Source: Lacipirellula limnantheis
Lineage (GTDB): Bacteria; Planctomycetota; Planctomycetia; Pirellulales; Lacipirellulaceae
Length of the DNA: 64,000 bases
Assembly: GCF_007746075.1 (NCBI RefSeq)
Contig: NZ_CP036339.1
Location: 6,442,028-6,506,027, forward strand
Direction: 5' to 3'
Shown here: positions 10,628 to 31,195 of the stretch, in pieces
How the letters are laid out: every line of letters starts with the position of its first letter
Position numbering within the stretch: position 1 is the stretch's first letter
The notes under the pieces: generated by a model
Database searches by the model: none
What the model saw: the letters and a program-made list of their open reading frames with translations, nothing else
Told to the model about the DNA's origin: nothing
Program-made: the position numbers and the translations under genes

Positions 10628-10969
10628 CGGAGTTACCCCAACGAACGACAATGCCCAAAAGAAGATCTTCCGCGGCGTGCGCGATCGTTCCTCGCGCACG
10701 CTCTGCCGACAAGTCTTCCCCTCTACGAGAGTCTTGGCGACAAACCGGCGCAAGGCAAATCGCTGCACATAAAATATTCTGCTAGCAGCGGATTAAGCGT
10801 CACGCGCGGCAGCCCTTAAGCACGGGCTAGCGGCGTGAAGCTACTCCCATCGGAACCGTTGGTCGCGACCCCTTCAATGGGAAAGTCGTGCGCGCGACGA
10901 GGAAAACCGTCGCAGCATGCGCAATAACCGGCACAATCGATAAGCTTTGCCGGCACGAGCGGCGCGACC
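10628..10969. other. 342-bp non-coding gap
   Basis: Upstream region of the YTV-like gene and downstream of the HEAT membrane gene. It holds short GC-rich inverted segments (GCAGCCCTTAAGCACGGGCT near 10810). I see no convincing gene, promoter hexamer pair or RNA. Confidence 0.5.
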
Positions 10970-27467: not shown

Positions 27468-27796
27468 GTAGTGGCAAGGAGAAGTCGACTGGGGCGACAG
27501 GGCAAACGGCGCGTAGCGTATCGCCCCCTCCCCGCTGTCGCGAGAGCACCGGGTAAATTGGCAGAGTTGGTGGTTTGCGCACCCCAGGTAAGCCTCTCTC
27601 GGTTTAGCTCCACATAATTGTCGGTCGCTCTCCGCAAATCGGCCGTCGCCGTCAGCTTTCCACCCAGTTTTCCGCAACCGCCAAGCGTATAATGGGTTAC
27701 ACGCCTTCACATTCCCTTCACGGGGCCTCCGCCCCAGCTTCACACAAGCCACAACCCATTGTGTGATAGCACCTTAGGAAAACCACCAACTGTTGT

Positions 27797-27824
27797 TTGA
27801 CGGCAACCGCCAACGGTGTAAGAT
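27797..27824 (+). promoter_or_regulatory. Sigma-70-like promoter of nrdJ
   Basis: TTGACG, 16-bp spacer, TAAGAT. The expected start of transcription (about 27831) lies just before the two NrdR-like boxes. Confidence 0.65.
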
Positions 27825-27837
27825 CGGGCCCTCCACT

Positions 27838-27884
27838 CCGCTGGATATGGTGTCCAATCGGGCATCGAACACCATATATAGTGG
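27838..27884 (+). promoter_or_regulatory. Tandem NrdR-like boxes upstream of nrdJ
   Basis: Box 2 (27869-27884) reads ACACCATATATAGTGG and matches the NrdR consensus acaCwAtATaTwGwgt at 14 of 16 positions. Box 1 (27838-27853) reads CCGCTGGATATGGTGT, with a well-matched right half (ATATGGTGT). Start-to-start spacing is 31 bp, the usual helical-phase spacing of NrdR box pairs. They lie just downstream of the promoter, a repressing position. Confidence 0.75.
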
Positions 27885-28045
27885 AATTTGATGATCCTCC
27901 CCGGCCTTTTGCGGGGTTTATCATAGCAACTCCCCAAAATGTAGTACGGTCGGCGAAAAGACGTGCCGATCAATTGCTGGGGCGTGTACTTCTGTACACA
28001 ATGGATTGGATGCCCTTCTGACCGCTTTGAAACAGGAGGTTTGTT

Positions 28046-31000
28046 ATGGCGATGGCCGACGCTTCGCTCGCTGCTCGTTCCCAAACTCGTTCCGCTGGCC
28101 CCGCTCGCGGCGGCGCCAAGCGCTTCCACGGCCGGCTCAAGGTCGACTCGCAATTCTGCCCGGTCGACGTCGCCGACGTCTTCGACACCGTCCAGTGGGA
28201 AGTCCGTAGCGCCGCCATCAAGGGCGAAAACGGCGAAGTCCTCTTCGAGCAGACCAACTGCGAGGTTCCCTCGTTCTGGTCGCAGCTCGCCACCAACGTC
28301 ATCTGCAGCAAGTACTTCTACGGCGAAGTCGGCACCGACCAGCGCGAATACAGCGTCCGCCAACTGATCCACCGCGTCGTCCGCACCATTGCCGACTGGG
28401 GCCTCGACGACGGCTACTTCGCCACCGCCGAAGACGGCGAGCGCTTCTACCGCGACCTGTCGTGGCTCTGCCTCCACCAGCATGGCGCCTTCAACTCTCC
28501 CGTCTGGTTCAACGTCGGCCTCTACCACCAGTACGGCGTCAGCGGCGCCAAATGCAACTGGCGTTGGGACGCACAGACGCGCACCGTCGTCCAGCCCGAG
28601 AATCCCTACGAGTATCCCCAAGGCTCGGCCTGCTTCATCCAGCACGTCGACGACAACATGGAAGACATCATGGAGCTCGCCCGCAGCGAGGCCATGTTGT
28701 TCAAGTTCGGCAGCGGCACCGGCACCGACCTCTCGACCCTTCGCTCGCACCGCGAGAAGCTCGCCGGCGGCGGCAAGCCCTCGGGCCCCCTCTCCTTCAT
28801 GCGGGTCTACGACCAGGTCGCCGCCGTGGTGAAGTCGGGCGGCAAGACCCGTCGCGCCGCCAAGATGCAGTCGATCAAGGTCTGGCATCCAGACGTGATG
28901 GAATTCATCGAATGCAAGTGGAAGGAAGAGCAAAAGGCCCGCGTCCTCATTGAGAAGGGGGGCTACGAGTCGAACTTCAACGGCGAAGCCTACAGCTCGA
29001 TCATGTTCCAGAACGCGAACCTCTCCGTTCGCCTCACCGACGACTTCATGCAAGCCGTCGAGAAGAACGCCGACTGGACCACCCGCTGGGTCACCGACCC
29101 CAAGCAGGCCGGCCCCACCTATCAGGCTCGCGACGTCCTCAACCGCATGGCCGATTGTGCCTGGCACTGCGGCGATCCCGGCGTCCAGTACGACACCACG
29201 ATCAACACGTGGCACACCTGCCCCAACAACGGCCGCATCAACGCCAGCAATCCGTGCAGCGAGTACATGTTCCTCGACGACACGGCCTGCAACCTGGCCA
29301 GCATCAACCTGATGAAGTTCCGTCAGCCCGACGGCACGTTCGATGCGAACGGCTTCCGCGCCGCCTGTCGGCTGTTCTTCATCGCCCAGGAAATCTTGGT
29401 CGATCACGCCAGCTACCCGACGCAAGACATCGCTCGCAACAGCCACATGTTCCGTCCGCTCGGCCTGGGCTATTCGAACCTCGGCAGCCTGCTGATGGCC
29501 AGCGGTCTCGCCTACGATAGCGAAGCCGGCCGCGGCGTCTGCGGCGCCATGACCGCCCTGCTGCACGGCGCCGCCAACCTCACCAGCGCCGAGCTGGCCG
29601 AGGCCGTCGGTCCGTTCGAAGGCTTCGAGCTCAATCGCGAACCGATGCTCCGCGTCATGGAGATGCACCGCGCCGCGACCGAGCACATCAAGCCCGAGTG
29701 CCCCGAGTACCTCCGCGACGCCTCGCGGCAGGTCTGGGACGAGGTCGTCGCCGCTGGCGCCGTCCACGGCTTCCGCAACGCCCAGGCCACCGTGCTCGCC
29801 CCCACCGGCACCATCAGCTTCATGATGGACTGCGACACCACCGGCATCGAACCCGATATCGCCCTGGTGAAGTACAAGCAGCTTGCCGGCGGCGGCATGC
29901 TGAAGATCGTCAACCAAACCGTCCCCGCCGCCCTCGGCACGCTCGGCTACGAGCAACCCGAGATCGACTCGATCCTTGATTACATCAACAAGGAAGACAC
30001 GATCGAAGGCGCCGCCGACCTGAAGCCCGAGCACCTCTCGATCTTCGACTGTGCGTTCACGCCGCGCAACGGCACGCGCAGCATCGCCTGGCAAGCTCAC
30101 GTCACGATGATGGCCGCCGCGCAGCCCTTCCTGTCTGGCGCCATCAGCAAGACGGTCAACATGCCCCGCGACACGACCACCGAAGACATCGCTCAGGCCT
30201 ACTTCGACGGTTGGCGTCTCGGCCTCAAAGCCCTCGCCATCTACCGCGACGGTTCGAAGGAAAGCCAACCGCTGAACACCGGCACCGAAGCCGACAAGCA
30301 AAAGAGCAAAGACGCCGCCGCGGCCGCCAAGCCTCGGCGCGAACGCCTGCCCGACACCCGTCAGTCGGTCACGCACAAGTTCAACGTGGCTGGTCACGAA
30401 GGCTACATCACCGTCGGCCTCTACCCCGACGGCCGCCCCGGCGAGCTGTTCATCACGATGGCCAAAGAAGGCAGCACCATCGGCGGTCTGATGGACGCCT
30501 TCGGCACGGCCGTCTCGATGAGCCTGCAGTACGGCGTGCCGATGGAGGATTACGTTCGCAAGTTCAGCCACATGCGGTTCGAACCGCAAGGCCACACGAA
30601 GAACCCCGACATCCGCATCGCCAAGAGCCTGATCGACTACATCTTCCGCTGGATGGGGATCGAGTTCCTCCCCGGCTACAAAGAAGCCAGCCTAGGCCTC
30701 CCGCTAGATTCAGCCCCCGGCTCCGCCGGGGGGTCCGACGACGAGCTGTCAGAAACACAGCTCAAGCCCGCCGCCATGAAGGCTGGCGGGCAGAAGACCA
30801 GCTCGGAAGCATCGGCCGGCAGCCAAAAGCTCCCGGCGCAAAGCCCCAAGCCCAAGGCCGAGTCGTCGCCATCCGAGCGAGCCGGGTCGTTCCCGACCCC
30901 GGCCCCGAACGGTAATGGCCACGGCCACACCAACGGCCACGGCAAGGCAAACGGCAATGGCCACGGCAACACCCCGAAGGCCGCCACCAGCAGCGCCTCG

Positions 31001-31195
31001 TTCTACAGCGCCAAGCTGCTCGAACGAGCCGGCGTCCTCACCAAGACCGACGCCGCCGGCCCCAACATCCGCAGCGAACAGTTCGCGCAGTTCCAAATCG
31101 ACGCCCCGGCGTGCGACGGCTGCGGCGCGATCACCGTCCGCAACGGCAACTGCTACCTCTGCCACAACTGCGGCAACAGCATGGGCTGCAGCTAG
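28046..31195 (+). CDS. nrdJ: Adenosylcobalamin-dependent (class II) ribonucleotide reductase
   Basis: This 1049-residue enzyme reduces ribonucleotides to deoxyribonucleotides using B12 to make a thiyl radical. The finger-loop NPCSEY carries radical Cys404; Cys196 (QGSACF) and Cys415 (TACNLASINL) are the redox pair. APTGTISFMMDCDTTGIEPD is the phosphate-binding motif. A TSCPD domain (GYITVGLYPDGRPGELFI) follows. A low-complexity linker of about 130 residues comes next, partly encoded by a GGCTCCGCC repeat and rich in GNGHGHTNGHG. A C-terminal zinc ribbon CDGCGAITVRNGNCYLCHNC ends the protein. AGGAGG lies 6 nt before ATG 28046. Monocistronic, with its own terminator. Confidence 0.97.
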   Translation: MAMADASLAARSQTRSAGPARGGAKRFHGRLKVDSQFCPVDVADVFDTVQWEVRSAAIKGENGEVLFEQTNCEVPSFWSQLATNVICSKYFYGEVGTDQREYSVRQLIHRVVRTIADWGLDDGYFATAEDGERFYRDLSWLCLHQHGAFNSPVWFNVGLYHQYGVSGAKCNWRWDAQTRTVVQPENPYEYPQGSACFIQHVDDNMEDIMELARSEAMLFKFGSGTGTDLSTLRSHREKLAGGGKPSGPLSFMRVYDQVAAVVKSGGKTRRAAKMQSIKVWHPDVMEFIECKWKEEQKARVLIEKGGYESNFNGEAYSSIMFQNANLSVRLTDDFMQAVEKNADWTTRWVTDPKQAGPTYQARDVLNRMADCAWHCGDPGVQYDTTINTWHTCPNNGRINASNPCSEYMFLDDTACNLASINLMKFRQPDGTFDANGFRAACRLFFIAQEILVDHASYPTQDIARNSHMFRPLGLGYSNLGSLLMASGLAYDSEAGRGVCGAMTALLHGAANLTSAELAEAVGPFEGFELNREPMLRVMEMHRAATEHIKPECPEYLRDASRQVWDEVVAAGAVHGFRNAQATVLAPTGTISFMMDCDTTGIEPDIALVKYKQLAGGGMLKIVNQTVPAALGTLGYEQPEIDSILDYINKEDTIEGAADLKPEHLSIFDCAFTPRNGTRSIAWQAHVTMMAAAQPFLSGAISKTVNMPRDTTTEDIAQAYFDGWRLGLKALAIYRDGSKESQPLNTGTEADKQKSKDAAAAAKPRRERLPDTRQSVTHKFNVAGHEGYITVGLYPDGRPGELFITMAKEGSTIGGLMDAFGTAVSMSLQYGVPMEDYVRKFSHMRFEPQGHTKNPDIRIAKSLIDYIFRWMGIEFLPGYKEASLGLPLDSAPGSAGGSDDELSETQLKPAAMKAGGQKTSSEASAGSQKLPAQSPKPKAESSPSERAGSFPTPAPNGNGHGHTNGHGKANGNGHGNTPKAATSSASFYSAKLLERAGVLTKTDAAGPNIRSEQFAQFQIDAPACDGCGAITVRNGNCYLCHNCGNSMGCS
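30704..30739. repeat. GGCTCCGCC hairpin inside the nrdJ linker
   Basis: GCCCCCGGCTCCGCCGGGGG lies in frame in nrdJ and encodes about residues 889-897 (APGSAGGSD). It is the first half of the intergenic double hairpin seen at 25055, 53801 and 59784. A second stem GCCCGCC/GGCGGGC follows at 30769-30791. Confidence 0.8.

Follow-up and report, generated by a model that had tools for sequence, protein, structure and literature searches.

NrdR boxes downstream of the nrdJ promoter probably also encode a leader hairpin in Pirellulales

The two NrdR boxes directly downstream of the nrdJ promoter are best explained as a repressor operator and an RNA hairpin carried by the same bases, a reading to which we give a probability of about 0.7. 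In Pirellulales the operator probably encodes, in addition to its DNA signal, a hairpin in the 5′ leader of the nrdJ transcript, transcription being predicted from the position of the promoter. The window referred to throughout is the whole 64 kb stretch of DNA that was analysed. It belongs to an order which we take to be Pirellulales, and the order that served as a control is presumably Planctomycetales; these names, as well as that of Pirellulaceae, come from general knowledge of gene content, and the computed result is one of kinship only.

The operator and its target gene

Box 2, ACACCATATATAGTGG (27869-27884, forward strand), agrees with the NrdR consensus ACACWATATATWGTGT at 14 of 16 positions, that is with two mismatches, as had been stated in the original prediction. 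No other site in the 6.83 Mb genome comes within two mismatches of the consensus, and in the window it is the sole match at three or fewer, where shuffling of the 64 kb gives an expectation of 0.03. One further genomic site was found at three mismatches, which is the control level (the control gives 5). Box 1, CCGCTGGATATGGTGT (27838-27853, forward strand), starts exactly 31 bp 5′ of the start of box 2 and matches at 11 of 16 positions, with a degenerate left half in which C4 is kept, as is G13 further on. A second, half-conserved box had been described at this distance, and the pair that it forms with box 2 scores 25 out of 32, the top score of all pairs spaced by 15 or 16 bp in the window (runner-up, 20). 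The 15 bp spacer between them, CCAATCGGGCATCGA (27854-27868, forward strand), includes GGGCATC at 27860-27866 and would supply the top of the stem and the conserved loop of the hairpin described below.

Both boxes are preceded by the proposed promoter TTGACG-16-TAAGAT, which was recovered as described and is conserved across the family. The -35 hexamer TTGACG occupies 27797-27802, with TTGAC invariant in 14 family sequences, and the -10 hexamer TAAGAT occupies 27819-27824 at a spacing of 16 (both on the forward strand), which places the predicted transcription start 7 nt 3′ of the -10, at about 27831-27833 on the same strand.

The gene downstream, nrdJ (28046-31195, forward strand), has a Shine-Dalgarno sequence at about 28034-28039 on that strand and encodes an adenosylcobalamin-dependent class II ribonucleotide reductase (RNR) of 1049 aa. 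This identity, proposed earlier from the sequence, is backed by matches to NF005122 (1410.7 bits; cut-off 859) and to TIGR02504 NrdJ_Z (594 bits). NrdJ appears to be the only RNR of the genome, since the NrdA/E model matches nrdJ and nothing else in the genome and the NrdD model gives zero matches there. The regulator, on whose presence the prediction depended, is encoded once: the genome scan found a single nrdR gene (TIGR00244, 189.7 bits against a cut-off of 124.65). Its 154-aa product (P0001) carries the canonical motifs CPFC/CLSC, IDSR (D15 and R17) and IRRRR and matches PDB 7p37 at 7e-32, solved NrdR structures being matched over its length; profile, motifs and PDB match together identify a protein with a Zn-ribbon and an ATP-cone.

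The NrdR reading is supported by the uniqueness of the site, the presence of nrdR, the detection of NrdJ as sole RNR and the conservation of the element upstream of nrdJ, all of which point to a genuine NrdR operator just 3′ of the nrdJ promoter. Taken alone, however, such an operator is ordinary, as class II control and extra boxes are already known elsewhere. The earlier suggestion that NrdR would control a class II enzyme likewise gains support from the conserved operator and the presence of nrdR, although it was incomplete in that the hairpin and the extra boxes had been missed.

Some additional features of RNR genes and of the leader were observed. A small contig (G000:C2:38500-38865) holds a frame of about 150 aa that shares 60% identity with NrdJ residues 755-876 and represents a stand-alone copy of this NrdJ domain; similar copies occur in several relatives. 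A relative of the same genus has an additional class I NrdA-like gene (G034:C1:728713-730047) which is absent from the window's genome. In the nrdJ leader, a perfect inverted repeat, GTGTAC-TTCT-GTACAC, is located at 27984-27999, about 35 nt 5′ of the Shine-Dalgarno sequence; it has a likeness to some LexA boxes, and the leader of the closest relative has the same repeat.

Conservation of the operator

When searched with a sequence-only model of promoter and boxes, the element was found upstream of nrdJ, once per genome, in 40 of the 43 family members and in 88 of the 396 sampled genomes of the order. In the 343 sampled genomes of the phylum, matches beyond the order were weak, NrdR-like and without GGGCAT. 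The gene downstream is nrdJ in 87 of the 88 loci, and the remaining contig ends before it. C4 is kept in 84 of 87 box 1s and G13 in all 87, while both are kept in every one of the 87 box 2s; the original prediction would have been refuted by poorly conserved boxes in relatives, and the boxes proved well conserved. The constraint falls exactly on the NrdR-specific positions C4, G13, A6 and T11 in both boxes, and published mutagenesis has shown that C4 and G13 are needed by NrdR (PMC9110341). The spacing, which had been described as the standard helical one, is indeed 31 bp from start to start, or three turns, with a spacer of 15 or 16 bp in 84 of the 87 loci; 15 bp is the spacer length preferred by NrdR (PMC12051234).

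Judging from its occurrence in other genomes, the box-pair element follows RNR genes whatever their class, since a similar pair lies ahead of class I nrdA in a relative from within the order (family f15, L157) and pairs are also found before nrdJ in another order. In that control order, a qualifying box pair was found at 51 of the 66 nrdJ loci sampled, in most cases directly behind a TTGAC promoter; the scan was weighted towards C4 and G13, whose conservation there is partly selected for. The NrdR box pairs before class I nrdA in family f15 (L157, which was checked, and also L158, L168 and L170-L173) were observed to lack GGGCAT.

Additional boxes in the family

Box 3, the NrdR-like CCCCAAAATGTAGTAC (27932-27947, forward strand), lies 63 bp from box 2, which corresponds to six helical turns. 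The best downstream NrdR-like match is found at +61 to +64 from box 2 in 38 of the 40 family genomes, against 1.9 expected, and box 3 is absent in the other families of the order. On the upstream side, the NrdR-like palindrome U1, CCACAACCCATTGTGT (27749-27764, forward strand), has NrdR half-sites around a CCTG-type centre and is the best upstream match, at about -119 (-118 to -131), in 39 of the 40 family genomes. A centre of the CCTG type may be tolerated in NrdR boxes, as the same centre is present in box 2 of a Planctomycetales pair (L182). A weaker NrdR-like box, U2, CCACCAACTGTTGTTT (27783-27798, forward strand), overlaps the -35 hexamer; in many genomes of the family the upstream match that ranks second falls at this place, about -84 to -88.

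A second hairpin, CCCCGGCCTTTTGCGGGG followed by TTT (27899-27916, forward strand), lies between boxes 2 and 3, with its centre in phase with the 31-bp spacing of the boxes. In most genomes of the family it recurs at about +32 to +48 from box 2, with a stem sequence that varies, and it is possibly a weak terminator or a degenerate box slot.

A hairpin in the same bases as the operator

The core of hairpin 1 (27845-27877, forward strand) consists of 27845-27853 paired with 27869-27877, and it can be extended outward into the left half of box 1 and the right half of box 2; the segment from box 1 to box 2 folds at -19.8 kcal/mol. GGGCATC, in the predicted loop, is present in 48 of the 87 Pirellulales spacers, with GGGCAT in 8 more, and it starts 9 nt before box 2 in 54 of these 56; about 22 of the 87 spacers lack both GGGCAT and any close variant of it, and GGGCAT is absent from all 51 spacers of the control order.

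Covariation links the inner half-boxes and the ends of the spacer as opposite arms of an RNA stem. In alignment A2, 94.7% of cells are paired compared with 89.3% after shuffling and 17-63% in slid registers, and 24 double changes were counted against 8.1 expected. The shuffled baseline is high because NrdR boxes are palindromic, which already lets their inner halves pair to some degree. Among 820 column pairs, the six variable stem pairs hold ranks 2, 3, 9, 17, 21 and 39, two of them being in the spacer and outside the boxes, and the summed covariation of the stem pairs is 49.5 in register compared with -6.6 to 2.1 when shifted. When each of 37 clusters was represented by one sequence, pairing between own arms reached 9.70 of 11 positions, whereas permuted arms reached 8.84 ± 0.14 (0 of 5000 permutations). 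Given 130-nt leaders and no hint, RNAalifold predicted hairpin 1 and nothing else. A tree-based null gave P of about 0.002, which carries little weight given the large variance and drifting composition of that null. The covariation is strong in the window's family (z 7.2) and weaker elsewhere in the order (z 2.5). A cis-regulatory RNA leader is marked by base pairs that covary in a transcribed leader, and such pairs were found here in a leader predicted to be transcribed. Swapped-arm folding with a fixed linker separated target from control poorly and was replaced by the permutation and register-sum tests.

It could be argued that the operator functions only as DNA, so that the covariation arises at the DNA level, by template-switch correction of quasi-palindromes or because the NrdR-DNA complex has some unrecognised need for it, while the hairpin in the RNA would be without function. 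This is considered unlikely, although palindromic boxes do pair by default, as the shuffled baseline of 89% makes clear, and the strand asymmetry is modest. In a strand test corrected for composition, A-C mismatches fall short of expectation (16 counted, 25.1 expected; z -2.5) and G-U pairs are at expectation and not enriched; the sense-strand signal from this weak test is no more than suggestive. The raw excess of G-U over A-C (115 against 18) was rejected as proof of the sense strand, being mostly a matter of base composition; after correction only the A-C depletion is left. On the other hand, spacer positions outside the boxes covary too, and palindrome correction does not explain the conserved GGGCATC loop. 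The spacer is not reported to be read by NrdR in the known structure. Complementary ends are also kept in spacers of 16-18 bp, for example AGC...GCT in L082.

The control order, which has the same operator, argues further against a signal made by DNA alone. Its box pairs provide a measure of the default pairing due to box palindromes, and their pairing is near expectation at every position, with an in-register score of 3.8. Permutation in the fixed register was not significant (P 0.15), and the free-register duplex energy gave a weak excess (P 0.006). These Planctomycetales pairs, located at the same place, thus show no in-register covariation and no GGGCAT in their 51 spacers.

A further possibility, which is compatible with the operator and constitutes a functional sub-reading of the best explanation, is that the leader is an attenuator in which hairpin 1 senses a ligand, a protein or the state of RNAP and so directs termination at hairpin 2 (27899-27919). 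The position of hairpin 2, near +32 to +48 in most family genomes and often followed by three to five T, would suit such a device. Its existence is nevertheless doubtful, as many members have no T run after hairpin 2 (e.g. CTCG...CGAGTCAAGG), the strength of hairpin 2 is mildly above that of shuffles (14.4 against 10.8, SD 3.5), the loop finds no downstream partner (complementarity 6.58 against 6.64 shuffled) and no comparable excess occurs in other families. The converse of a DNA-only operator, an RNA element whose resemblance to NrdR boxes is accidental, is highly improbable: box 1 matches poorly (11/16) and the segment from box 1 to box 2 can fold in its entirety as a single hairpin, but the constraint is exactly on the NrdR-specific C4, G13, A6 and T11 of both boxes, box 3 and U1 carry the motif outside the stem, and the pair is found ahead of class I nrdA too, as well as in an order that lacks the hairpin.

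Three other candidates for the leader were tried and rejected. Neither an AdoCbl riboswitch nor any other Rfam family gave a match at E 1 in 27500-28200. For a pseudoknot between the GGGCATC loop and the leader, the complementary GATGCC was found in the window's own genus only and the overall complementarity equals that of shuffles. A leader peptide, ATGGTGTCCAATCGG..., is open in L036, and by eye it is interrupted by stops or lost in relatives.

Proposed mechanism

According to the preferred reading of operator and hairpin in the same bases, NrdR tetramers loaded with dATP/ATP would bind boxes 1 and 2, at about +6 to +53 of the predicted transcript, and in the family box 3 and U1 would join to form a larger repressing complex. 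Plentiful dATP would then lower the transcription of the sole RNR, as we infer from NrdR of S. coelicolor and E. coli. In Pirellulales, boxes 1 and 2 would base-pair with each other once transcribed, and the resulting hairpin, close to the 5′ terminus of nrdJ mRNA, would display the GGGCAUC loop. The hairpin may act as a cis-acting 5′ leader element which sets the lifetime of nrdJ mRNA or binds a factor through its loop; these two roles are favoured, with roughly even odds between them and attenuation. More tentatively, and with the odds against it, the same 47 bases may combine the operator with a functional, sensing mRNA hairpin, such that NrdR on the DNA and a loop-binding ligand or protein on the RNA jointly set the level of the sole RNR; in the window's family, a phased NrdR complex spanning several boxes would be part of this scheme.

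Since NrdJ is the only RNR detected in the genome, the leader would set the whole dNTP supply of the cell. If the preferred reading is true, one sequence would be under constraint both in its DNA, as an operator for a repressor, and in its RNA, through folding, which would be an unusual dual code.

Comparison with known systems

A class II RNR under NrdR control has a precedent in Streptomyces coelicolor nrdRJ, where two 16-bp boxes are similarly placed about three helical turns apart at the promoter (PMC9110341). The two systems also share conserved C4 and G13 and a homologous NrdR. The present locus differs in the position of its boxes, both 3′ of the predicted start, in the conservation of its spacer and in the covariation of its arms as an RNA hairpin. 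RNR promoters that carry more than two boxes have been described for E. coli nrdAB (boxes 0, 1 and 2, with a functional box in the downstream promoter region; PMC12176259) and for the double pair of Listeria nrdAB (PMC12051234). In this respect the loci are alike; here, in contrast, a single extra NrdR-like box 62-63 bp downstream and a palindrome about 119 bp upstream are kept at fixed distances family-wide. The fixed third box at 62-63 bp provides a natural test of how NrdR oligomers use three or more boxes.

The nrdJ RNA motif (Rfam RF03034) is comparable as a structured RNA in an nrdJ leader, whereas the present structure is a single hairpin overlapping NrdR boxes. RF03034 had no match at E 1 in 27500-28200 and none in the genome, a weak result given that the positive control was also silent. 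In the NrdR literature consulted, no NrdR operator was found described in which the pair of boxes doubles as a conserved mRNA hairpin.

Other sites in the order

One genome (G119) has three more NrdR-like box pairs away from nrdJ (L162, L163 and L165), one of which is just 5′ of a frame resembling sugar phosphate isomerase/epimerase; these extra pairs may be mobile repeats or belong to a larger NrdR regulon. In many genomes of the order the palindrome TGCTAGCA, presumably a binding site, is found 5′ of nrdJ, often in repeated copies. Within the window it occurs at 10780 and 63708 only. It was observed 100-200 bp upstream of nrdJ in L109, L111, L113, L099, L067 and others, and in family members it is located at about -135 to -160 from box 2.
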